Source of the DNA: an uncultured Dehalococcoidales bacterium
Lineage (GTDB): Bacteria; Chloroflexota; Dehalococcoidia; UBA1151; UBA1328
Assembly: GCA_905614375.1 (NCBI GenBank)
Contig: CAJQSP010000013.1
Location: 1-12,563, forward strand
Reading direction: 5' to 3'
DNA: 12,563 bases
The translations under genes were made by a program, and so were the position numbers. Positions 1,641-12,563 of this stretch are shown in pieces (position 1 is the stretch's first letter; each line of letters opens with the position of its first letter). The notes below the pieces were generated by a model that saw only the letters and a program-made list of their open reading frames with translations, had not been told where the DNA came from and made no database searches.

Positions 1641-3074
1641 ATGACAACAAAACCTAATCTGCTCTTCATTTACTCTGACCAACATAACCCTGATGTTATG
1701 GGTTGTGCCGGCGATCCTGTTGTCGCGACACCCAACCTCGACTCACTGGCAGCTAAGGGAGTGATCGCCACCGCGGTCTACTGTGCGTCACCTGTTTGTG
1801 TACCCGCTCGCATGTCGATGCTGTCTGGGCGCTATCCACACGAAATTGACACATGGACAAACAGCCACGTCATGGATTCAACTGTTCCAACGCTAGCGCA
1901 CTCCATGGGCGCTGCGGGATATAACCCCGTCTTGGCCGGACGGATGCATTTTCTAGGACCAGATCAACTACACGGTTACAGTGATCGGATAATAGGAGAC
2001 CACAGTTCTCTGGTGCCTGGGACAGGCGATGCGAGCTTTGACTTCCTCGAAGATATACGTAACTCGGGACCCGGTTCAAGCGGATACCAAGTGATTGATG
2101 AAGATACCACAGCCGTCGCAGTGGAATGGCTAAACCGATTTGCTCTTCGGAAGAGAGCTAATCGTGACGAGGAGCCTTTCAACTTAACGGTCGGATATAT
2201 CCTCCCACATTCACCATATATAGCTAGAAAAGAGGATTATGATCGATATGCCGGGCGAGTGAAGCCACCTACCGTTAGAATGCCGTTTTCTGATCTTGAT
2301 CACCCCTTTGACAAATGGTGGCGCGAACACGTAAATCTGGTTGACCCTCCCGAAGAAGACGTTATGAAAGCAAGGGCAGCTTACTGGGCTTTGGTTGAAA
2401 GGCTGGACACAAACATAGGGCTCATTCTTGAGGCTCTTCGCACCAATGGATTAGATGAAAACACTCTGATTGTTTACAGTACTGATCATGGAGATATGGT
2501 CGGCGAACGTGAACTCTGGATGAAAAGATGTTTCTACGAACCGTCTGTTAAAGTGCCTGCAATAATTTCATGGCCAGGAGTGATACCAAGTGGCACACGG
2601 TGCGATCGAGTGATGAGCGTTATGGATCTTAACGCGACCATACTTTCGGCGCTTGGTGCTCCCCCACTTCCTGGATCGCGTGGAAGAGACGCTATACCCA
2701 TGTTGCGCGGTGAGGACAATGATTGGGATGATGTCGCAATATCCGAATACGCAATACAGGAGGGTTCAGTTCAACGAATGGTGCGTAAAAACAACTGGAA
2801 ATTTATTTACCACCATGGAGAACCTGCACAACTATTCGACCTTTCAGCAGACCCAAACGAACTAAACGACCGATCACAGGATTCAGATTACGCAGAGATC
2901 GTGTCTGAATTATCGGCTCTGGTGTTCGCTGACGGATGGGATCCTGACCATGTGCGAAAAAGGCTCAAAGAAAAAAAACGAGACACGGACTTGATACGAA
3001 AATGGGCCGAAAATTGCCCTCCGGAAGATTCGTATCGATGGGATATGGACCCGTCATGGACTTACGTTGAATAG
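1641..3074 (+). CDS. Choline-sulfatase-like type I sulfatase
   Basis: Hydrolyses a sulfate (or phosphonate) ester of a small molecule; 477 residues from the ATG at 1641. An in-frame TTG lies three codons upstream at 1632, and neither start has a strong ribosome-binding site. The catalytic signature CVPAR (C53-P55-R57) sits in SPVCVPARMSMLSGRYP, where C53 would be matured to formylglycine. Metal ligands are the N-terminal D13-Q14 and D282-H283 in STDHGDMVGERELW. Residues 101-112 (RMHFLGPDQLHG) and the DHGDM-GER-LW-K block closely follow choline sulfatases (BetC), as does the C-terminal tail with aromatic residues near W468. The usual lysine of GK-x-H is Arg101. No signal peptide precedes the core, so it should be cytosolic. 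It is monocistronic here and convergent with the minus-strand operon. No choline-oxidation genes are nearby, so a choline-sulfate substrate is not established. Confidence 0.9.
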   Translation: MTTKPNLLFIYSDQHNPDVMGCAGDPVVATPNLDSLAAKGVIATAVYCASPVCVPARMSMLSGRYPHEIDTWTNSHVMDSTVPTLAHSMGAAGYNPVLAGRMHFLGPDQLHGYSDRIIGDHSSLVPGTGDASFDFLEDIRNSGPGSSGYQVIDEDTTAVAVEWLNRFALRKRANRDEEPFNLTVGYILPHSPYIARKEDYDRYAGRVKPPTVRMPFSDLDHPFDKWWREHVNLVDPPEEDVMKARAAYWALVERLDTNIGLILEALRTNGLDENTLIVYSTDHGDMVGERELWMKRCFYEPSVKVPAIISWPGVIPSGTRCDRVMSVMDLNATILSALGAPPLPGSRGRDAIPMLRGEDNDWDDVAISEYAIQEGSVQRMVRKNNWKFIYHHGEPAQLFDLSADPNELNDRSQDSDYAEIVSELSALVFADGWDPDHVRKRLKEKKRDTDLIRKWAENCPPEDSYRWDMDPSWTYVE

Positions 3075-3120: not shown

Positions 3121-3154
3121 AAAAAAGGCCATTGCACAAGTGTGTGATGGCCTT
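3121..3154 (-). terminator. Rho-independent terminator of the minus-strand operon
   Basis: The stem AAGGCCAT (3125-3132) pairs perfectly with ATGGCCTT (3147-3154). It can extend inward by five pairs (two of them G-U) to a 4-base AAGT loop. On the minus strand the hairpin is followed by a T-run (complement of the A's at 3121-3126). It starts a few bases after the stop codon of the membrane-protein gene. The plus-strand side has no T-run, so it acts mainly on the leftward operon. Confidence 0.85.
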
Positions 3155-3160
3155 ACAGCA

Positions 3161-3787
3161 CTAATTCCATCCAAAGGTTGCGAGCTTTTCAGCATTTACA
3201 AGCGTTAAGACCGCGGTAGTCGCGATGGCGAAAAACGTTATCGCAGCAGCATTGGAAATCCAAACAATACGCATATTGGAAGTTTGATTCGCATGATCCA
3301 GGACCCAACCCAAAATGGCAAAAGCAGGAATTGTCATCAGGGCCATGGGAATACCTAAAAACAAATTGACTATCATCGAACCAGGTATTTGGAACAGCGA
3401 GTTAATCCCGATGTTGATAATTTCTTCGGTAGAAAATACGGAAACTCTGATAGCGGTAACCCAAGAAATCAGAGGCAATGTACCACCGTATACAAACGGG
3501 AATCCCAGGCCAAATACAATACCACGTAGTGCCCAGCTGATTTTCCCTTGAGGCCAATAACCGAGTTCTGATGGGGCGGGCATCAACAGTATTGCAATCA
3601 TCATTCCTACCAGGAAGCCGGCCAACGTTACCGTTACGTAAATACCGGCAGGAGGGTACGCTGCAGACTCCCAATGTCCGTGATCGGCCACGTTGAGTAT
3701 CATCGCGATCACCAGACCAAACATCCCCCCACAAATCACTGTCGAGAGATTGCGCTTCACGCCCAGTATATTATGACGATATCTCAC
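3161..3787 (-). CDS. Small integral membrane protein, unrecognised family
   Basis: A 208-residue, strongly hydrophobic protein. Predicted membrane segments by eye are about 14-34, 48-69, 86-112, 134-164 (long, possibly a re-entrant pair) and 174-198, so five or six spans with a short basic N-terminus (KR near 11-12). Glycine- and proline-rich helices (GIVFGLGFPFVYGGTLPL) suggest a channel or transporter-like fold, but I do not recognise a family motif. The GTG start overlaps the TGA of the upstream enolase-superfamily gene by four bases (GTGA), so the two are probably translationally coupled. It is the last gene before the terminator. Co-transcription with a catabolic cluster makes product or sulfate export, or accessory uptake, plausible, but this is only inference. 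Confidence 0.75.
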   Translation of the reverse strand: MRYRHNILGVKRNLSTVICGGMFGLVIAMILNVADHGHWESAAYPPAGIYVTVTLAGFLVGMMIAILLMPAPSELGYWPQGKISWALRGIVFGLGFPFVYGGTLPLISWVTAIRVSVFSTEEIINIGINSLFQIPGSMIVNLFLGIPMALMTIPAFAILGWVLDHANQTSNMRIVWISNAAAITFFAIATTAVLTLVNAEKLATFGWN

Positions 3788-4926
3788 GAGTCCTTGATAA
3801 TCCCACCGTGGCGCCTGACAGCGTCTAGATTAAGTTCAGCTCCAAGACCTGGGCCTTCTGGGAGGTGGAAATACCCGTTACTTATTCGTTCGGGAGGTGC
3901 AAATAATTCAAACCGCCATTCAGCTTCGCCAATTGCATGCTCAAGCGGCCTTTTCCCGCCAATGGCGGCGGTAACATGAGCACTCGCTAGCTGTGAAATT
4001 GGGCCGGATGGGCTGTGTAAAGAAACGTCAGCACCTAAGGCAATCGCAGCTCTGCCGGCCGCAAAAGCATCCGAAACCCCTCCGCAGTGTTTAATGTCGG
4101 GCATTATTACACTGACTGAACCCTTTTTTACTAGATCAACAAAAGCATTCTCACCGTAAATACCTTCGGCTCCGGCCATAGTAACGGGGATCTCTTTTGA
4201 CAGGGCGCTAAGTCTGTCCGAGTCTGTTCGGGGCTGGAGCGGTTCCTCAAACCAGCCTATGTTTAGTTCAGCCAGTCGATGCGCTACAGATTTAGCTACC
4301 TCGGGCGAAAATCGGCTATGACAGTCAACTAGCAGGTCAACCTCATCACCAATGGCGCTTCTAACTGCGGCAACGCGGGCCAGGCCTAGCTCAGAAGCTT
4401 GCAAGCTTTCATCGACAGAAAGTTCTCGATTAACCTCATCAAATGGTGCGCACTTTACCGTCGAGAATCCCATGCCTACCGCACGCTCTGCCATCTCCCC
4501 AAAAGCTACCGGTGACCTGCTACCAAGCAAAGCTCGATTGATATTCCCGTACAAGGGAACCTTGTCGGTGAACACCCCTCCGAGCTCCTCGGTGAGACTA
4601 ACTCCATTATGTACAGCCTTGAGCTGAGTTACCGTAGATCGCAGACCGCTAATCGCTGTGGCAAGAATAAAATCTGTGGTCGGTCGGTCATTGTCTATTC
4701 CAAGAACTGAACAGACTTCTGATTCGTTTTCGATAGGACGATTCCGGAGTTTCTGAAAAAGTTCTTTTACAAGAATTACAACCTCATCACCTTGTTGGTT
4801 GCCTTTAGTCACTTCAATCAGTGTCTTTGCACCTTCAGCATCAGTGATTTCTAAAATAACCCACGTAGTCCTACGCGTGACCGGTATGAGAATCTCTTTT
4901 ATCGCGCTTAGTCGAACTTGCTGCAT
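3784..4926 (-). CDS. Mandelate racemase/muconate lactonizing (enolase superfamily) enzyme
   Basis: 380 residues. The enolase superfamily abstracts a proton alpha to a Mg2+-bound carboxylate. The N-terminal capping domain covers about 1-125 and the barrel about 126-350. Visible ligands are D201 (LLVDCHSRF), the Glu pair 227-228 (GWFEEPLQ) and E254 (MAGAEGIYG). D277 (MPDIKHCGG) and H304 (SLHSPSGPIS) form the His-Asp dyad of mandelate-racemase-type members, and E329 lies in RPLEHA. The barrel strand 2 motif is VKCAPFDE: K158 is present, but the second lysine of KxK, the base in mandelate racemase, is Ala160. This points to a His-Asp-driven acid-sugar dehydratase or epimerase rather than a classical racemase. 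A good ribosome-binding site (AGAGGA, within 4931-4938 on the opposite strand) precedes the ATG. It lies 45 bases after the sulfatase stop and overlaps the next gene. The exact substrate is unknown. Confidence 0.9.
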   Translation of the reverse strand: MQQVRLSAIKEILIPVTRRTTWVILEITDAEGAKTLIEVTKGNQQGDEVVILVKELFQKLRNRPIENESEVCSVLGIDNDRPTTDFILATAISGLRSTVTQLKAVHNGVSLTEELGGVFTDKVPLYGNINRALLGSRSPVAFGEMAERAVGMGFSTVKCAPFDEVNRELSVDESLQASELGLARVAAVRSAIGDEVDLLVDCHSRFSPEVAKSVAHRLAELNIGWFEEPLQPRTDSDRLSALSKEIPVTMAGAEGIYGENAFVDLVKKGSVSVIMPDIKHCGGVSDAFAAGRAAIALGADVSLHSPSGPISQLASAHVTAAIGGKRPLEHAIGEAEWRFELFAPPERISNGYFHLPEGPGLGAELNLDAVRRHGGIIKDS

Positions 4927-4971
4927 TAATTTCCTCTCGTTTCTGACGCACGTATCGTTAACTATCCGTAC

Positions 4972-6468
4972 CTAGTTCGGTAATACGGCCGTATCATCGG
5001 TATCAGCCTGCCATTGATTGATCCTGTCCGTTAGATCGTTGATCCTGGGCTTTTCAGAAACTTCGTCGAAAAGGTTTTTCTGCTCGTATCGATCCTCATT
5101 TAGATCATAGAATTCATTCTGTTCCGGACCCAAAGTAAGCTTCCATCCTTCTCGCGAAATTATTGACCTGTAAGGCTGCATTCTCAGCTTTTGAACTTTT
5201 GTCATGTCTTCTTTGATTAAATGCGTTCTATCCCCAGGCCAGTCAATAAATACATCGCTTTCTGCCAGTGTTTCTTCTCCACGGAATACCGGAACTCTAC
5301 TCTTTCCTTGTAACTCTTCAGGTGGTTCTACACCCATCAGGTCCAGCAATGTTGGCACGGTATCAATATGGCTATATCGCCCCTCAATACGCGACATCCT
5401 CTGGATCGGTGAAAAAGATTTGTCTCTGTTATCCACCTTATGATTATTAATCCACGGAACATGGACAATCATGGGAACCTTTATTGATGACTCATAAAAA
5501 GTTGTCTTTTGGATTATGTTGAATTCGCCAAGCTGTTCCCCATGTTCACTGGTGAACACAATAATCGTATTGTGCTGTAATCCGGCCTGGACAACTGCGT
5601 CGAGAATTCGCCCGACTGCTCTATCTACCAGAGTCACATTGCCCCAATACCGAGCGATGATATCGCGCCATAAACTCTCATCTTCTGTGTCACCCCAAAC
5701 TTCCCTATCCGGGTCGAAACCTTGCCCCCCCAGAGACGCTTCAGCTCTCAACTTATGCATGTCGGAAGCATTATCTGGTGGATTTTTTAAAAACGTAGGT
5801 GGTACCGGAATATCATCAGGGTCGTAAAGATCATTCAGTGGTCCATCATAAGGAGGGTGTGGTTCAAATATATTTATGTAAAGAGCAAACGGCCTGTGCT
5901 TGTTTTTTTCGATGAACTGCTCTGCTTGAGATGCCAAGAATTGTGCTTTGGTAAATTCTTCGACCATGGTGGCTGCATAAGCCCTGGAAAAAACTTCTTC
6001 ACCTTTAGAAACTTTATCTGGCACAAATCCGTTCATTTTCAGGAAATTACAATGATCACTTAAAACCTTGTCGTACTTTTCGTCGGAGTAATAATCCCTA
6101 TATTGATCCTCTATGCTCACCCACTCATCAAACCCGGCTCTGCGTATTACCTCATCGCCCAGATGCCACTTACCGTGGTAAGCCTTTAAATAGTTCTCAG
6201 GAAGGAAGTCAACTAAGGTTTTCACATCGTTCGGCAATGGAATATTGTTTTCAATTGCCCGGTGTGTGTGAGGCCACAGACCACTGAGAAGTGTGCCGCG
6301 TGAAGGAGTACAGACCGGAGCGCTCACATATGCGTTATCAAATACGAAACTACGCTGACTGAGCGCATTGAGATTGGGAGCCTCAACAATCCGGTTACCG
6401 TAGCAAGATAAAGTATCGGCTCGCTGCTGATCGGTAAAAATAAAAATAAGATTCGGTGATTCTGGCAA
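4972..6468 (-). CDS. Type I sulfatase (alkaline phosphatase superfamily)
   Basis: 498 residues. The formylglycine signature is CTPSR (C53-P55-R57) in SAPVCTPSRGTLLSGLWPHTH. Metal-site residues D13-Q14 (FTDQQRADTLSCYG) and the HGKWHLG motif with K100 and H102 are present, as are EPHPPY (H204) and K321 in IIQKTTFYESS. The usual Asp-His of the second metal motif reads Glu308-His309 (FTSEHGEQLGE), a conservative but uncommon ligand change. There is no signal peptide, implying cytoplasmic action on an imported ester. The only start that keeps the N-terminal metal motif is a TTG at 6468-6466, preceded by GAGGT ten bases upstream; an in-frame stop lies just before it. It sits between the aldolase-like and enolase-like genes in the same operon, so sulfate removal is probably one step of that pathway. 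Confidence 0.9.
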   Translation of the reverse strand: MPESPNLIFIFTDQQRADTLSCYGNRIVEAPNLNALSQRSFVFDNAYVSAPVCTPSRGTLLSGLWPHTHRAIENNIPLPNDVKTLVDFLPENYLKAYHGKWHLGDEVIRRAGFDEWVSIEDQYRDYYSDEKYDKVLSDHCNFLKMNGFVPDKVSKGEEVFSRAYAATMVEEFTKAQFLASQAEQFIEKNKHRPFALYINIFEPHPPYDGPLNDLYDPDDIPVPPTFLKNPPDNASDMHKLRAEASLGGQGFDPDREVWGDTEDESLWRDIIARYWGNVTLVDRAVGRILDAVVQAGLQHNTIIVFTSEHGEQLGEFNIIQKTTFYESSIKVPMIVHVPWINNHKVDNRDKSFSPIQRMSRIEGRYSHIDTVPTLLDLMGVEPPEELQGKSRVPVFRGEETLAESDVFIDWPGDRTHLIKEDMTKVQKLRMQPYRSIISREGWKLTLGPEQNEFYDLNEDRYEQKNLFDEVSEKPRINDLTDRINQWQADTDDTAVLPN

Positions 6469-6507
6469 TACTATTTAGACCTCGTTGGACTTTTATTTTC
6501 AAAAAGA

Positions 6508-6536
6508 TTTATGTACATTTTGTAATAGCAGTTCAA
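6508..6536 (-). promoter_or_regulatory. Possible internal promoter before sulfatase gene
   Basis: In the 79-base gap upstream of the sulfatase, the minus strand reads TTGAAC (6536-6531), then 17 bases, then CATAAA (6513-6508). Each hexamer matches the sigma-70 consensus at 4 of 6 positions in an AT-rich context. It is weak, and the gene can equally be transcribed from upstream. Confidence 0.25.
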
Positions 6537-6547
6537 TAAATACGCAT

Positions 6548-7444
6548 CTATGTAGCGAATAAATCTGATAACTGGCTTAATGCCCAGTCCAGTTCACGCC
6601 GTTCAAACTTATCCAGCTTCTTCGCTGAGGGGTTGCGGATAAAAGGATTGTCGATAATGCCTCTTGTGTGAAGCACATATTTACTCACTTCTATGCCGAA
6701 TAAATTCCCATATAGCAGTACGGGAAGTAAACGCGCTTGAAGTGACCTTGCCTCGTCCAACTCTCCCGCTTCAAGGAGATCCCACACTTTAACTTGAGCA
6801 TCTACGATGTGACTACCAGGCATGTTTCCACACGCACCTCTCGAGTGCTCGTCGATGATGAATTTGGCTGCCATTCCGCCCATAATGCCTTTGAATGCTC
6901 CAGAATCTTTGGCAAGAATTTCTGAAATGACATGGGAGGCAAAGCTACCTTCCTGTTTTACATACTGTATTAGAGGAAACTTGTTTGCCAGTTTGATCAA
7001 GAAATCTGCTGACATTGAAGAGCCACTCGCTGGTGCGTTTTGAATAAATATTGGGAGACTGCAAGACCGGGATAACTCTTCAAAAAAATCATGGATGTAT
7101 TGCTGGGACGCCGGTCTTGAAATTGTAGGCATCGCGATGATTGCTTCGCAACCTATCTCCTCAGCATACGTAGCTAAGCCGACAGAATGCGTGATGTGAT
7201 TACCGGTAACCCCTGCCACCACCGGAACACGTTTATTCACGACTTCAACATAGGTATTTAATACCTCACGGTGCTCCTCTTCACTCAACGTGTAGAACTC
7301 GCTGGCCAATACAGGACCGACGATGCCTGTTGCACCTGAGTTGACGGCGAACTCCACAACACGCTTTAGGCTCTCGATGTCTACTGCCCCCTTCGCTGTA
7401 AAAGGTGTCTGGGGTATCGAAAAAATCCCTCTGTACTGAACCAT
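6548..7444 (-). CDS. Dihydrodipicolinate synthase/N-acetylneuraminate lyase family protein, atypical active site
   Basis: 298 residues from an ATG with GGGAG ten bases upstream; a TTG seven codons earlier is less likely. Length and the opening YRGIFSIPQTPFTAKGAVD are typical of the DapA/NanA class I aldolase barrel. K163 in YVKQEG is in the position of the Schiff-base lysine. The keto-acid carboxylate motif GTTGE is replaced by GPVLASEF (43-50), and the YN-x-P motif carrying the catalytic tyrosine reads QNAP (135-138), so Thr-Thr and Tyr are all missing. It is therefore not a DHDP synthase and probably not an ordinary pyruvate aldolase. A lyase, aldolase or hydratase acting on another carbonyl compound is more likely. 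It sits 36 bases after the ATPase gene in the same operon, linking the importer to the catabolic genes. Confidence 0.85.
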   Translation of the reverse strand: MVQYRGIFSIPQTPFTAKGAVDIESLKRVVEFAVNSGATGIVGPVLASEFYTLSEEEHREVLNTYVEVVNKRVPVVAGVTGNHITHSVGLATYAEEIGCEAIIAMPTISRPASQQYIHDFFEELSRSCSLPIFIQNAPASGSSMSADFLIKLANKFPLIQYVKQEGSFASHVISEILAKDSGAFKGIMGGMAAKFIIDEHSRGACGNMPGSHIVDAQVKVWDLLEAGELDEARSLQARLLPVLLYGNLFGIEVSKYVLHTRGIIDNPFIRNPSAKKLDKFERRELDWALSQLSDLFAT

Positions 7445-7480
7445 GTAACTTCGTCTCCCTGACAAAATTATTCCACTGAT

Positions 7481-8542
7481 CTATTCGGCTGAACCGACGA
7501 GTTCTAGTTCCTCGATTCTGTGGCAGCTCGTAAAGCGGCCAGGCTCGATTTCTCTTACCTCGGGCGCTTCAACGCGGCATTGCTCGACCGCATATTTACA
7601 CCTGGGGTGGAAAAAACACCCAGACGGTGGATTAGCAGGGTCTGGCACTTCTCCTGATAGAGAAAACGTTCTCCGCTTCCCCTTAGACGGCTTTAATGCG
7701 GGCAGCGATGAAATTAGAGCTTCCGTGTACGGGTGCTTTGGATCCCGGAACAGGTCCTCCGGGGTTCCTATCTCAGCAACTTTTCCTACGTACATCACCA
7801 CCACTCGATGGCAGATATGCCTTACGACTCGCAAGTCATGGGCGATGAATATATACGCAAGCCCTAGATCTTGTTGAAGGTCAGCCATCAGATTCAAAAC
7901 CTGCGCCTGAACAGACACGTCTAGAGCCGAAACAGGCTCATCAGCTACGATCAAGCGGGGGTTAAGAGCGAGAGCACGGGCTATCCCGACACGCTGTCTT
8001 TGCCCGCCGCTAAAAGCGTGGGGATACCTGCGCATGTATTCAGGTGCGAGTCCGACCCGTTGTAAAAGGGAAGATACCCTGTCTTCCTGTTCCGACCGAT
8101 TCCCAACGTGGTTTACTACAAGTGGTTCGGCGACTATCTGGAAAATAGTCATACGAGGATTGAGCGAAGTATAGGGATCTTGAAAAATAAACTGAATATC
8201 ACGACGAAGTGGGCGCATCTGAGACTGCGGGAGGTTCGCAAGATCAACAACATCTCCTGTCCTCGTACGAAACAAGATCTGCCCTTCCGTCGGTTTCAGC
8301 GAGCGCACTATGCATCTTGAAGCGGTGGTTTTACCGCATCCGCTTTCGCCTACAATACCCAACGTTTCACCAGTTTTAATTGAAAACGTTAGACCATCGA
8401 CTGCACGCACCATTGAAGTGCGTCGCCGAAAAAATCCTTTGCGAATAGGAAAGTATTTTTTTAGCCCGATGACATTTAAGAGATCGTCACCCTCATCTGC
8501 TGCATCTGACGATTGCATTATGGCCGCATTCTCTTCGGTCAT
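7481..8542 (-). CDS. Peptide/oligosaccharide-type ABC transporter ATP-binding protein (DppF/OppF type)
   Basis: 353 residues from the ATG at 8542-8540, which overlaps the upstream gene's TGA by one base (TGATG) and has GGGAG seven bases before it; an in-frame TTG at 8572 is less likely. It powers import across the inner membrane. Walker A is GESGCGKT (65-72), Q-loop Q121, signature FSGGQRQR (from 177), Walker B LIVADEP and H235 in AHD. The C-terminal OppD/F extension (about 285-345) carries PSGCFFHPRC with cysteines 309, 315, 322 and 340, the arrangement known to hold an iron-sulfur cluster in some Opp/Dpp ATPases. It pairs with the preceding ATPase as a heterodimer. The specificity of family members ranges over peptides, nickel, opines and oligosaccharides, so the sequence alone does not give the cargo. 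Confidence 0.93.
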   Translation of the reverse strand: MTEENAAIMQSSDAADEGDDLLNVIGLKKYFPIRKGFFRRRTSMVRAVDGLTFSIKTGETLGIVGESGCGKTTASRCIVRSLKPTEGQILFRTRTGDVVDLANLPQSQMRPLRRDIQFIFQDPYTSLNPRMTIFQIVAEPLVVNHVGNRSEQEDRVSSLLQRVGLAPEYMRRYPHAFSGGQRQRVGIARALALNPRLIVADEPVSALDVSVQAQVLNLMADLQQDLGLAYIFIAHDLRVVRHICHRVVVMYVGKVAEIGTPEDLFRDPKHPYTEALISSLPALKPSKGKRRTFSLSGEVPDPANPPSGCFFHPRCKYAVEQCRVEAPEVREIEPGRFTSCHRIEELELVGSAE

Positions 8543-9612
8543 CAGGATTCTCCCTTTGTGTATAGGAAACAACTGGCTTTCTGCTGCCCATTGACTATCA
8601 GCAGTTCGGGTTCGCTGCGATCGCAGGTTCCGGGCATGAAAGAATCACATCGCGGATGGAAAAAACATCCTGCCGGCCTGCTGTGAGGTTCCGGCACGGA
8701 GCCCATAATGGTCGGTAGTCGACTACCTTCTATTTTGCTGGTGCCTGGCATCGATGTGAAAAGAGCTTTGGTATAAGGATGTCGCGGTGACTGGAACAGT
8801 TCCATCACAGACGCTTCTTCAACAACCCTCCCCAAATACATCACCTGAACCTCGTCTGCGATCTCCGCGATGACTCCAAGATCATGGGTGATAAATATCA
8901 TGGCCATGCCATGTTCTGCCTGTAACGAACCCAGCAAGTCAAGAATCTGAGCCTGTGTAGTTACGTCAAGGCCCGTGGTAGGTTCATCAGCTATCAGGAG
9001 AGATGGATTCGTTGAAAGTGCAAGTGCGATCATCGCTCTCTGCAGTTGTCCACCACTCAGCTCATATGGATATGAGCCTATACGTTCTGATGGATTCGGC
9101 ATTCCAACACGCTGCAGCCAGTCCACGGCCTGCTCATTAGCCTCAACCTTCGAAATGGGTTTGTGGAGACGCAGGGCCTCGACCATTTGATTGCCAATTG
9201 TGTGGACGGGGCTGAAAGCAGACATGGGTTCCTGGAATATCATCGATATGCCACCGCCCCTGATCGAACGGATTTCACTTCCATTGGGAGGAAGTCTCAA
9301 AATATCAGTCTCAGTGGCAGTTTCTTCGCCTTCGGCACGCTGGTGGTACAAAACTTCCCCACCGGCGATACGGCCTGGGCGGCCTATAAGTTGCAGGATC
9401 GAACGAGCTAAAACACTCTTACCGCAGCCACTTTCACCGACGATACCCACCGTCTTCCCTTCAGCGACGTCAAAGGACACACCATCTACCGCCTTTACAA
9501 CCCCGTCGGGGGTTGAAAATTCGACATACAAATCACGTATTTTCAGCACCTTGCGATCTGGCTGTTTATCGGCGTTAATGATTGTGCCTTCTGCTTTGTT
9601 TGTTTTGACCAT
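8542..9612 (-). CDS. Peptide/oligosaccharide-type ABC transporter ATP-binding protein (DppD/OppD type)
   Basis: 356 residues from an ATG. It is the first of two paired ATPases. Walker A is GESGCGKS (59-66), the Q-loop is FQEPMSAFSP, the signature LSGGQLQRA (185-193), Walker B LLIADEPTTGLD and the H-loop H243. The C-terminal oligopeptide-transporter extension contains PAGCFFHPRC with Cys316, 322, 330 and 348, again a four-cysteine set suited to a metal or iron-sulfur site. The N-terminal ~23 residues are a loosely conserved extension. The gene starts 30 bases after the DppC-type permease stop and ends with a one-base overlap with the DppF-type gene, consistent with co-translation. The ribosome-binding site is weak. 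Confidence 0.93.
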   Translation of the reverse strand: MVKTNKAEGTIINADKQPDRKVLKIRDLYVEFSTPDGVVKAVDGVSFDVAEGKTVGIVGESGCGKSVLARSILQLIGRPGRIAGGEVLYHQRAEGEETATETDILRLPPNGSEIRSIRGGGISMIFQEPMSAFSPVHTIGNQMVEALRLHKPISKVEANEQAVDWLQRVGMPNPSERIGSYPYELSGGQLQRAMIALALSTNPSLLIADEPTTGLDVTTQAQILDLLGSLQAEHGMAMIFITHDLGVIAEIADEVQVMYLGRVVEEASVMELFQSPRHPYTKALFTSMPGTSKIEGSRLPTIMGSVPEPHSRPAGCFFHPRCDSFMPGTCDRSEPELLIVNGQQKASCFLYTKGES

Positions 9613-9642
9613 AGTTTGCTTCAGTTTGAAACCTCAACGCCC

Positions 9643-10773
9643 CTAGGAAGTGCTTGAGTACGGGTCCGCAGCATCTCGCAAACCGTCACCCATAAAGTTA
9701 AGGGCTAGAATCACAACAATCACAGGTAATGCCGGCAACATCAACCAAGGGGTCAAAGCTATAGAGTGGACGTTTTGTGTAGCGTGCAACAGAACGCCCC
9801 AGCTTATCGCCGGTGACCGTAAACCCAATCCAAGAAAACTCAATGCAGTTTCACTGATGATCATAGCCGGTATTGCCAGTGTGGTCGCAGCAATAAGGTG
9901 GCTAAAAAACGATGGCAACATGTGACGGAAAACGATCCTTTGCCATCCAGCTCCCGACAGCATCGCTGCGGTCACAAAATCTTCTTCCCTCAGAGAAAGA
10001 AATTTTCCTCTAACCACCCGGGCCAAATCGGTCCAGGCGAACAGAGAAATGATAATGGTGATCGCAAAATAAATTTGGAGCACGCCCCAGTCCCGAGGGA
10101 GGATTCCTGCCAAAACCAGCCAAATCGGTATGGTCGGTATCGCTCGGAAAATTTCAACTGAGCGCTGTATGACGGTATCGATAACCCCACCGAAATAGCC
10201 TGATATGGCTCCGAGAGAAACGCCAAGTATCAGAGTCAATGTAACGCCGACTAGGCCGATAGACAGTGAAAACCGAGTACCGTAGACGATTCGTGAAAAA
10301 AGACCTCTGCCCTGTACGTCAGTCCCCAATGGAAAAACCAGACTCTCGTGGCTCCTTGTTGAATCTCCCACTCCTATGAGATGCCGGTTGCTGTGAAGAA
10401 GTCCCAGAAACTTGTATTCAAACCCTCGCGCAAAAAATTGCATTGGAATCTTTTCAGAGCAATCTTCGTCGAATGTTTTTTTCAACGACACCGGATCACG
10501 CTTGCCAATCATTGCACACACGTATGGTGCTGGCTTCAATCCGTCAAATACATGAATACTCTGCGGTGGCATCAGCGACCGTTTTGCATCTGTTTCGACA
10601 GGGTCATTAACGGCAACAAATTCCGCGCCGAACGCCACAAGGTAAAAAAACGCCACTATGACAGCCGAAATAAGGGCGAGTTTATGCCGTCGAAAGCGGG
10701 CCCAAACGAGTTGCCTTTCCGAAGCCAGTTTTACATCGCGGGATTCGCTGTTTTCTAAGTTATCGGCAGTCAA
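9643..10773 (-). CDS. ABC transporter permease, DppC/OppC type, with enlarged first periplasmic loop
   Basis: 376 residues from a TTG at 10773-10771 with AGGGA nine bases upstream. The next in-frame ATG would remove the first membrane span, so TTG is preferred. Membrane segments by eye are about 33-53, 168-192, 212-226, 232-250, 291-311 and 343-361. The cytoplasmic EAA coupling motif is at 264-289 (EEDFVTAAMLSGAG...RHMLPS), and the family motif FPLGTDVQGRGLFSR lies at 147-161. Usual DppC proteins are near 300 residues; the extra length is an insert of about 70 residues between the first span and FPLGTD, containing Cys86 and Cys105. This longer loop probably faces the binding protein. The gene begins 6 bases after the DppB-type stop, and its ribosome-binding site overlaps that stop. 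Confidence 0.93.
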   Translation of the reverse strand: MTADNLENSESRDVKLASERQLVWARFRRHKLALISAVIVAFFYLVAFGAEFVAVNDPVETDAKRSLMPPQSIHVFDGLKPAPYVCAMIGKRDPVSLKKTFDEDCSEKIPMQFFARGFEYKFLGLLHSNRHLIGVGDSTRSHESLVFPLGTDVQGRGLFSRIVYGTRFSLSIGLVGVTLTLILGVSLGAISGYFGGVIDTVIQRSVEIFRAIPTIPIWLVLAGILPRDWGVLQIYFAITIIISLFAWTDLARVVRGKFLSLREEDFVTAAMLSGAGWQRIVFRHMLPSFFSHLIAATTLAIPAMIISETALSFLGLGLRSPAISWGVLLHATQNVHSIALTPWLMLPALPVIVVILALNFMGDGLRDAADPYSSTS

Positions 10774-10779
10774 AACTAT

Positions 10780-11763
10780 CTATCCCTGCCTAATTCTAGG
10801 ATCTAAAACACCAAGCAGAATATCTGAGATCAAAGTCCCCACAACAGTCATAACCCCCACAAGGAAAATTATCGCACCGGCCAGTTGCAAGTCCTGTTCC
10901 AAAAGAGACGTCAACAAAGTAGGTCCAATAGTTGGAAGGCTTAACACCACCGACACGATAACGCTTCCAGAAATCAGGAACGGGAATAGGTACGCCGTCA
11001 AACTGACCGCGGGGTTCAGCGCCAACCTGACCGGGTATTTCAGGATCAGACGCCACTCAGTGAGGCCCCTTGCGCGTGCAGCAACTACATATGGCTTGTG
11101 CAGCTCATCCAGTAAGTTCGCACGTACGATCCTTATGAGGGACGCTGTTCCTGATGTTCCGAGAACAATAATCGGTATCACAAGGTGTTTTGCCAGATCC
11201 CATATGCGGGGCAGACTCCAGGGAGAATCCACATACTCTGGTGAAAACAGCCCCCCCATGCTCACTCCAAAAAACACAAACCCAAGCCACAGAAAAAGCA
11301 ATGCTAGTAAAAAATCAGGGACAGCAACACCGATAAATCCCAGGGTGGTAAAAGAATAGTCCGCAAATGAATATTGCCTCACCGCCGATAATATTCCGAT
11401 CGGTATAGCAACCACCCAAATAAACACAACGGTCGCCCCTGCGTACAACACGGTAAGCAGCAGTCTTTGGCCCAATATGTCATTTACCGGGGCACGCTGC
11501 GCAAACGAGTAGCCGAGGTTCCCTCGCATCATGTTCCCGATCCAGCTCAGATACTGCAGATGAGGGGGCTCATCCAGGCCAAAATAAATTCTGAGGTTTT
11601 CGATTTCTGCCTGTGTAACGTTTTCACCTTCCATCTGCAGGGCAATCACCTCGGACGTGACATAGTCGCCCTTGGGAAGCTGAATGAGAATAAATGAGAC
11701 CAGTGAAAGCGCCCATATGGTGATCAGACCTATGCCCATGCGTTTTGCGAGATAAATCCACAT
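10780..11763 (-). CDS. ABC transporter permease, DppB/OppB type
   Basis: 327 residues, the normal size for the family. It starts MWIYLAKRMG with a first membrane span at about 9-29, then a large periplasmic loop with the conserved FGLDEP...YLSWIGNMMRGNLGYS segment (61-86). Further spans are at about 103-127, 137-167, 193-210, 258-276 and 296-318. The EAA motif is at 223-249 (KPYVVAARARGL...KYPVRLALNP), and the C-terminal DPRIRQG is typical. It forms the heterodimeric channel with the DppC-type permease encoded next. The ATG at 11763-11761 has only a weak ribosome-binding site, and the gene lies 241 bases after the binding-protein gene, past a strong hairpin. Confidence 0.93.
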   Translation of the reverse strand: MWIYLAKRMGIGLITIWALSLVSFILIQLPKGDYVTSEVIALQMEGENVTQAEIENLRIYFGLDEPPHLQYLSWIGNMMRGNLGYSFAQRAPVNDILGQRLLLTVLYAGATVVFIWVVAIPIGILSAVRQYSFADYSFTTLGFIGVAVPDFLLALLFLWLGFVFFGVSMGGLFSPEYVDSPWSLPRIWDLAKHLVIPIIVLGTSGTASLIRIVRANLLDELHKPYVVAARARGLTEWRLILKYPVRLALNPAVSLTAYLFPFLISGSVIVSVVLSLPTIGPTLLTSLLEQDLQLAGAIIFLVGVMTVVGTLISDILLGVLDPRIRQG

Positions 11764-11865
11764 TATCGGAAATTAACCTTGATCCATTCATCGGTCGCAC
11801 AAGAAGTGGTCCAGCACACATCCAACCTCAAGTGAACGCATCCAGACCGTTTAGTGTAATTCGGT

Positions 11866-11888
11866 TTCGTACGAACATATAAGTTCGT
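11866..11888. repeat. Short palindrome and overlapping inverted repeat
   Basis: TTCGTACGAA (11866-11875) is a perfect 10-base palindrome. Its right arm ACGAAC (11871-11876) can alternatively pair with GTTCGT at 11883-11888. It lies between the intercistronic hairpin and the permease start and could be an operator or a minor RNA structure; evidence is weak. Confidence 0.25.
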
Positions 11889-11931
11889 CCTCAAATGCGG
11901 CCGATTCTTCATCAAGACCATCGATGGAACT

Positions 11932-11968
11932 CCGTGTCCCGGCGTACTAGACGTATGCCGGGACACGG
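11932..11968 (-). promoter_or_regulatory. Strong intercistronic hairpin between binding-protein and permease genes
   Basis: CCGTGTCCCGGCGTAC (11932-11947) pairs with GTATGCCGGGACACGG (11953-11968) around a 5-base loop: 15 Watson-Crick pairs out of 16 and one G/T position. The minus strand has no T-run downstream, so it is not a standard terminator. Hairpins placed here typically protect binding-protein mRNA and lower permease expression. A repeat element is an alternative. Confidence 0.7.
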
Positions 11969-12004
11969 GATTTCCAATCTCATTATCCGAAACCGTATCT
12001 GGGA

Positions 12005-12563
12005 CTACCGCTCCTGAGTTGCCAGAGAAAGGGTCTCGATAAACGCATTCCCGGGAGTGCCTCCAAATACGCTGAATGGAAGCGGATATGGCAGGTTGCG
12101 CACGTAGTTTTTAACTATGCCCACACGTTCTGCCGCCCCGGTCACCGTGCCGATATACGGAACGTTGTCACAAAGTGCGTTCACTCCCGACTGAACGTCA
12201 TCTATACGTTCTGCAGGACCTTTAGCAAGAGCAGCGTAGTAATCGTCGACCATACCGACTATCCACTCGGGACCACCGTATTCACTTGCAGTCGGATTGT
12301 CTGCCCATTGTTTTGCCAGGGGAGCCCAGCGTGTAGAAGGCAATAAACGACTTTCGAGAACAGGGAAGAATGGACCAGTAACGTTGATCTCTCCCATGTG
12401 CTCGTTACCAGCCTCTATCTCACCCAGCAAGGACTTCGATACAGGCTGGACCTGCAGGTCGATCCCGACATTTTCTTTCCACATCTGTGAAATCATTTCA
12501 CCGAACTCGGAATGATCAATGTGGTAGTTCGTCGGGGCAACCAATTCGAGAGTCAAACGTTTT
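12005..12563 (-). CDS. Extracellular solute-binding protein family 5 (DppA/OppA type), C-terminal part
   Basis: The minus frame is open from the right edge to a TAG at 12007-12005, giving about 185 residues with no true start inside the window (a TTG at 12556 is internal). The N-terminal segment LTLELVAPTNY followed by a helix-strand unit (MISQMWKENVGIDLQVQPV) is the last lobe of a family 5 binding protein. The aromatic- and Pro-rich C-terminal end (VGIVKNYVRNLPYPLPFSVFGG) follows the family pattern. The missing N-terminal part would carry the signal peptide or lipobox. It sits directly upstream of the permease and ATPase genes in transcription order, so it is the receptor of this importer and the operon probably begins beyond the right edge. 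This class binds peptides, opines, sugars and other small molecules. Confidence 0.85.
   Translation of the reverse strand, partial: KRLTLELVAPTNYHIDHSEFGEMISQMWKENVGIDLQVQPVSKSLLGEIEAGNEHMGEINVTGPFFPVLESRLLPSTRWAPLAKQWADNPTASEYGGPEWIVGMVDDYYAALAKGPAERIDDVQSGVNALCDNVPYIGTVTGAAERVGIVKNYVRNLPYPLPFSVFGGTPGNAFIETLSLATQER

Follow-up and report, generated by a model that had tools for sequence, protein, structure and literature searches.

Organization of the locus

The DNA window that we analysed (12,563 nt) is contig CAJQSP010000013.1 of assembly GCA_905614375.1, from an uncultured Dehalococcoidales bacterium. Its minus strand carries a nine-gene array encoding, in order, the end of a solute-binding protein (SBP), the DppB, DppC, DppD and DppF components of an ATP-binding cassette (ABC) transporter, a protein of the DHDPS family (hereafter the DapA-like protein), a sulfatase, an enolase-superfamily protein and a 208-amino-acid membrane protein. 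The initial annotation of this DNA had listed these nine genes on this strand and in this order, and the gene calls hold. Its family assignments are matched by Pfam and NCBIfam for the permeases, the ATPases, the DHDPS-family protein, the sulfatase and the MR_MLE_C enzyme, and for the SBP through an orthologue in the related genome G486. The array is a real, selected and syntenic operon built of known families. The features of the window are:

12005..12563, minus strand: family-5 (cluster C type) solute-binding lipoprotein, C-terminal part (last 185 amino acids; cut by the window edge)
11932..11968, minus strand: stem-loop in the SBP/dppB gap
10780..11763, minus strand: DppB-type permease (PF00528/PF19300; 92% identity to G486)
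9643..10773, minus strand: DppC-type permease (PF00528/PF12911, BPD_transp_1/OppC_N; 89% identity to G486)
8542..9612, minus strand: DppD-type ATPase (ABC_tran and oligo_HPY; 83% identity to G486)
7481..8572, minus strand: DppF-type ATPase (420 bits with NF008453, above its cut-off of 408; 85% identity to G486)
6548..7465, minus strand: DHDPS/NAL-family protein, similar to L-2-keto-3-deoxyarabonate (L-KDA) dehydratase (PF00701; start more likely near 7444)
4972..6468, minus strand: sulfatase without signal peptide, CxPxR motif present as CTPSR (PF00884 and PF16347, Sulfatase and SGSH_C)
3784..4926, minus strand: enolase-superfamily (MR/GalD-like) acid-sugar dehydratase (PF13378, MR_MLE_C)
3161..3787, minus strand: 208-amino-acid integral membrane protein (no Pfam or NCBIfam match)
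3121..3154, minus strand: terminator-like hairpin with a U run, directly beyond the last operon gene
1641..3074, plus strand: second sulfatase without signal peptide, convergent with the operon (PF00884)

The genes are tightly packed. Gaps of 6 nt and 30 nt separate dppB from dppC and dppC from dppD, and dppD overlaps dppF by 31 nt; dppF is followed after 15 nt by dapA (36 nt with the later dapA start found in relatives), which lies 79 nt from the sulfatase gene, itself 45 nt from the enolase gene, and the last two genes overlap by 4 nt. As originally described, the exception is the gap between the SBP gene and dppB, which spans 241 nt and contains the stem-loop (-43.1 kcal/mol over 105 nt, z -3.6). 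G486 has a hairpin in the same gap, built of different bases (z -5.3 for the whole gap; L124:2158-2400). A classical terminator in this gap was considered and rejected, since no T run follows the stem, and the hairpin is for that reason probably not an intrinsic terminator; stabilization of the SBP mRNA, or attenuation, is the probable function. At the distal end of the operon, where a single terminator had been proposed, there is indeed a hairpin with a U run, but its fold z-score is only -1.7 and the terminator scanner did not list it. An Rfam search gave no match. The upstream end of the operon and the 5' end of the SBP gene lie outside the window.

Two predicted sugar-acid dehydratases

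Acid-sugar dehydratases of the GalD type have three acidic metal ligands together with catalytic bases contributed by a D-x-H motif and a C-terminal histidine. In the enolase homologue, aligned to 2qq6, D201, H203, E227, E254 and H304 are invariant in 25 rows, reproducing the D-x-H ... H layout of these enzymes and agreeing with the dehydration that the initial annotation had offered as one option. The best NCBIfam matches of the protein are gluconate and galactonate dehydratases, below cut-off, and it falls well short of D-galactonate dehydratase proper (124.7 of 311 bits with NF010624 and 133.6 of 750 with NF040790).

The DapA-like protein has 7c0c/3fkk as its best solved relative. It is 26% identical to L-KDA dehydratase, an enzyme of the alternative L-arabinose (Weimberg-type) pathway of Azospirillum brasilense that has the DHDPS/NAL fold, a Schiff-base lysine, a glutamate two residues on and a glutamine in place of the aldolase tyrosine. 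These residues (Lys171, Glu173 and Gln143 of L-KDA dehydratase) correspond to Lys170, Glu172 and Gln142 of the DapA-like protein, which are invariant in 17 rows, and the sequence-profile comparison comes out at 201 to 154 bits in favour of L-KDA dehydratase. A second dehydration is therefore likelier than cleavage, because Gln142 replaces the aldolase tyrosine and Lys170 and Glu172 match L-KDA dehydratase; the cleavage step that had been proposed for this protein is not borne out. Besides the low identity, the two systems differ in the partner dehydratase, which is enolase-type in the operon and of the IlvD/EDD type in Azospirillum. We do not assign the DapA-like protein to the L-KDA dehydratase family, and it is likelier that it only works like a member.

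The closest named homologues of the two enzymes are from a 'Chloroflexota bacterium' for the enolase homologue (80% identity) and a 'SAR202 cluster bacterium' for the DapA-like protein (87%). In a plasmid collection, no match to the DapA-like query reached 60% identity (34% for the best five), and these matches were not used.

A predicted family-5 importer with an SBP close to an acidic-sugar binder

The SBP fragment of 185 amino acids gives no Pfam match by itself. Its orthologue in G486, a lipoprotein-type protein that covers nearly the whole SBP, is 94% identical over these 185 residues and matches PF00496 at 4e-51. With this SBP_bac_5 protein, two permeases and two oligo_HPY ATPases in one cluster, the transporter has the full composition of a family-5 (Dpp/Opp) importer. 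The closest solved relative of the SBP is 5ipw and the closest relative with a characterized ligand is the pectin-binding SPH1118 of Sphingomonas sp. A1, which is reported to take acidic pectin sugars as ligands and to have hardly any affinity for peptides. Judged by this nearest relative, the ligand of the operon transporter would be an acidic sugar. The text on SPH1118 describes a large cluster C SBP of family 5 that was annotated as peptide-binding, with oligopeptide-type ABC genes predicted nearby, which resembles the present arrangement; the likeness is at the level of the whole protein, and SPH1118 differs in that it binds unsaturated galacturonate oligosaccharides and that no sulfatase context was found in the text consulted.

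Two sulfatases without signal peptides

The operon sulfatase has the features of the S1 (formylglycine) class, with the motif C53-T-P-S-R57 and the residues D13, K100, H102, H204, H309 and K321; C53, P55, R57 and the remaining active-site residues are invariant in 22 alignment rows. Sulfatases usually have an Asp-His pair at a metal ligand; of the 25 clade rows, 23 have a glutamate before H309 and two an aspartate. In alignment A2 of this clade, row L093 begins late, owing to a late start coordinate.

Downstream of the operon and convergent with it lies the second sulfatase, which was absent from the initial annotation and which is 91% identical, and in the same position, in G486 and in a further relative, G454. 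That the operon sulfatase has no signal peptide, as had been noted, holds for both enzymes. The second sulfatase is a distant relative of choline-sulfatase, scoring 213 bits against 6fny and 301.3 bits with the choline-sulfatase family TIGR03417 (cut-off 433.45); the operon sulfatase scores lower still with this family (166.5 bits). The choline-sulfatase BetC acts in the cytosol after import of its substrate, and the present enzymes are like BetC in that they are S1-type sulfatases without a signal peptide. They are unlike it in falling below the family cut-off and in that no choline-oxidation genes were seen in the window. Choline sulfate as the main substrate was considered and rejected on these grounds and on the presence of a GalD-like dehydratase in the operon.

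Sulfatase genes number 14 in G486 and at least 18 in G009, both genomes without a match to PF03781, the profile of the formylglycine-generating enzyme (FGE). In G206, one 457-amino-acid frame contains two partial PF03781 matches, above cut-off.

The small membrane protein

The 208-amino-acid protein has orthologues in the same place in G486 (67% identity) and G454 (76%), and is the fastest-changing of the operon proteins. A structure model built from a four-row alignment has a mean pLDDT of 54. In G450, a distant homologue (25% identity) is encoded immediately behind a similar dppBCDF set; this links the membrane protein with the transporter more than with sulfate.

Conservation in close relatives

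We searched for orthologues in 250 genomes of one order, including the SAR202 genomes G004, G014 and G016 (loci L004, L048 and L068). A close orthologue of the DapA-like protein (86% identity) is present in one of them, G486; among the matches listed, the others reach at most 44%. Contig C34 of G486 carries, in the order of the window and with 83% DNA identity over 6.9 kb, the genes for the SBP, DppB, DppC, DppD, DppF and the DapA-like protein and a sulfatase gene that the contig end cuts after residue 283. Up to that point the sulfatase is 95% identical. Contig C9 of G486 has residues 132 onward of the enolase homologue, together with the membrane protein and the convergent second sulfatase. 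The operon proteins of G486 are 67-95% identical to those of the window. The breaks of the two contigs fall within the sulfatase and the enolase genes; direct linkage of the two halves in G486 is therefore not seen, but each half fits the window. G454 has the distal end of the operon, namely the end of the enolase homologue and the membrane protein, as well as the second sulfatase; no DapA match is listed for this genome, perhaps as a result of incomplete assembly.

In each of the eight genes or gene parts that were compared with G486, a set without dppD and dppF, variation is greatest at third codon positions, indicating that these genes are maintained under selection. The membrane protein shows the contrast least clearly (56/28/80).

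The conserved block has its left edge near position 1301, where the window ceases to resemble G486 and G454. Elsewhere in the window, positions 288-695 on the plus strand encode a C-terminal piece of a FAD-dependent oxidoreductase, which seems truncated (PF01266 from profile position 268), and positions 2-241 contain an open frame that opposes it and is NHL-like by eye.

Association of the sulfatase clade with Dpp-type transporters

Matches to dppB and dppC occur in six of the 11 loci fetched for the operon sulfatase clade (L093, L094, L095, L097, L099 and L100), in support of the proposed link between this sulfatase and a peptide-type ABC system; a Dpp permease match is missing from the other five (L096 in G005, L098, L101 in G002, L102, and L103 in G015). 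Across five genomes, 7 of 16 clade sulfatases lie within 8 kb of a family-5 SBP compared with 1 of 45 matches to other sulfatases, in a count for which the 8-kb limit was set after the loci were known and in which one G009 gene figures as two matches. A count over seven genomes gave 9/18 versus 2/74; G206 and G486 were then dropped, since only their best clade member was listed. For all sulfatases taken together, 11 of 92 matches are near a family-5 SBP, against 6.5 expected on a crude estimate, which is unimpressive alone. We treat co-location of transporter and sulfatase beyond the close relatives as suggestive.

The arrangement of these loci varies. L095 (4595-14648) and L097 (4933-11089) both have the order SBP5-DppB-DppC-alpha carbonic anhydrase-sulfatase, where the carbonic anhydrase has a lipoprotein-type start and the sulfatase has no signal peptide. 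The L095 cluster continues with two SulP permeases, and no DppD or DppF match was found within either 20-kb locus. These two clusters suggest coupled import, desulfation and anion exchange. SulP was matched in five of nine genomes and not found in G486, G454, G007 or G450. L093, L094 and L099 have homologues of the operon sulfatase (51-54% identity) near SBP5-DppB-DppC and a UxuA-like gene in all three, with an amidohydrolase gene in L093 and L099, the two loci inspected for it, and an enolase paralogue in L094 and L099. In L100 (5022-13591; G007), three clade sulfatases, two of them in tandem, surround one SBP-DppB-DppC set.

Proposed pathway and alternatives

We propose, with a probability of about 0.5, that this is a catabolic operon of a marine SAR202-type Chloroflexota bacterium for a sulfated acidic sugar, which would be imported whole, desulfated in the cytosol and dehydrated twice. 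The direction of transport, the class of substrate, the order of reactions and the cytosolic site of desulfation are what we infer from the gene content. The substrate, a sugar acid bearing sulfate or a short acidic oligosaccharide, would be captured by the family-5 lipoprotein and brought in intact by DppBCDF, after which the cytosolic formylglycine-type sulfatase would take off the sulfate, with the convergent sulfatase possibly acting on another sulfate position. By dehydration, the GalD-like enzyme would turn the desulfated sugar acid into a 2-keto-3-deoxy acid, which the DHDPS-family enzyme would dehydrate again through a lysine Schiff base. A five-carbon substrate would end as alpha-ketoglutarate semialdehyde, the five-carbon skeleton being a guess. 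The small membrane protein would be an accessory, perhaps connected with the transporter or with the export of anions. A GalD-like enolase homologue and an SBP near acidic-sugar binders make choline sulfate, amino acids and hydroxy acids less likely substrates.

Several observations weigh against this proposal. The pathway is incomplete in the window, since no dehydrogenase, lactonase, semialdehyde dehydrogenase or glycosidase was seen there; none of the enzymes passes an NCBIfam equivalog cut-off; and Glu200, the proposed second base of L-KDA dehydratase, is an alanine in the DapA-like protein. The five best profile scores of the operon sulfatase (210 to 202 bits) are tied between sulfatases and phosphonate monoester hydrolases, so the hydrolase may act on a phospho ester and could prefer phosphonate or phosphodiester substrates. 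FGE (PF03781) was matched in five of nine genomes and not found in G486 or G454, which share the locus, nor in G009 or G450, assemblies that may be incomplete and in which a radical-SAM maturase was not searched for. The initial annotation had suggested looking for the same gene order in other genomes: the order recurs in the nearest relatives, G486 and G454, but is not widespread, with sulfatase, DapA and Dpp genes together in none of the 80 loci of enolase homologues (the best 80 of 587 in public genomes, some shortened by contig ends) and the full set only in close relatives. In two of these loci, L001 and L055, Dpp genes are near the enolase homologue with no sulfatase or DapA match, and some sulfatase match occurs in 11 of the 80, a figure that has no control and from which we draw nothing.

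The co-location contrast is also inflated, because the five genomes were picked after the loci had been seen and four with clade members (G001, G002, G005 and G015, with five more members) were omitted. With these members counted as misses it becomes 7/21 versus 1/44 genes (p 0.001), with the tandem trio taken as one 5/19 (p 0.008), and with one pair per genome dropped 2/11 versus 1/44 (p 0.10). Finally, DppBCDF and the membrane-protein homologue of G450 adjoin a peptide-synthetase-like gene (by eye; L135:2-1462; 5.8-kb contig) rather than a sulfatase; the use of this type of transporter is not confined to partnership with sulfatases.

That pairing, the Dpp-type annotation of the transporter and the tied scores of the hydrolase would all suit a peptide or opine importer followed by unrelated enzymes, in which the 'sulfatase' hydrolyses phosphonates or phosphodiesters or has sulfated amino acids as its substrates, with the enolase homologue an epimerase. 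Such an operon is distinctly unlikely. The closest ligand-characterized relative of the SBP binds pectin sugars and scarcely any peptides, and the sulfatase clade adjoins Dpp genes and, once, SulP. Dipeptide epimerases typically carry two lysines; the enolase homologue has H203 and H304 and not the lysine pair. It is likewise doubtful, if a little less so, that the operon is as we propose except for the last step, with the DapA-like enzyme an aldolase that splits the 2-keto-3-deoxy acid into pyruvate and an aldehyde, the order originally suggested. The invariant Gln142 at the position of the aldolase tyrosine, as in L-KDA dehydratase, and the profile scores argue for dehydration, and PMC9795676 also weighs against an aldolase.

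The operon might instead import diverse sulfate esters and desulfate them mainly for the sulfate, leaving the enolase homologue and the DapA-like enzyme to dispose of one carbon skeleton. Loci of relatives that pair transporter and sulfatase with no close homologues of either enzyme (distant enolase paralogues only, in L094 and L099) would fit such scavenging. We consider it improbable, however, as both enzymes lie inside the operon, the DapA-like one also in G486, and as seawater is rich in sulfate.

Relation to SAR202 sugar-acid metabolism

The proposed double dehydration fits published accounts of SAR202 bacteria, which, in the parts consulted, describe non-phosphorylative sugar-acid routes with COG4948 and COG0329 enzymes (PMC10444878) and an expansion of sulfatases in SAR202 groups I and II (PMC6946804). 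The group I pathways in these accounts resemble the operon in combining enolase-superfamily dehydratases with DapA-family enzymes, in their sulfatase expansions and in a growth response to sugar acids. They differ in that the same parts describe paralogue families, stress MFS transporters and speculate on the breakdown of sulfated polysaccharides, fucoidan being one example. An import-coupled operon joining a Dpp-type ABC transporter to sulfatase, enolase and DapA genes was not found in the parts of the open-licence literature searched. The expansions of the three enzyme families in SAR202 are known, and their linkage to an importer in one operon is new as far as this search shows.

More tentatively, SAR202-type bacteria in general might use dedicated cluster C ABC systems to import whole sulfated acidic sugars, desulfate them internally, dispose of the sulfate through partner membrane proteins (in some, SulP together with an external carbonic anhydrase; here, the 208-amino-acid protein) and dehydrate the product twice, a generalization that we regard as doubtful. 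If true, desulfation inside the cell, with its products kept private, would be an alternative to the model of extracytoplasmic sulfatases, suited to dissolved sulfated matter of low molecular weight. SAR202 bacteria, which abound in the ocean, carry enolase-family enzymes by the dozen and many sulfatases. An operon that joins a sulfatase and an enolase homologue to a specific importer offers testable substrates and a testable reaction order for the use of sulfated organic matter, and it suggests a role for some of the expanded sulfatases in handling small sulfated molecules in the cytosol rather than in the breakdown of polysaccharides outside the cell.

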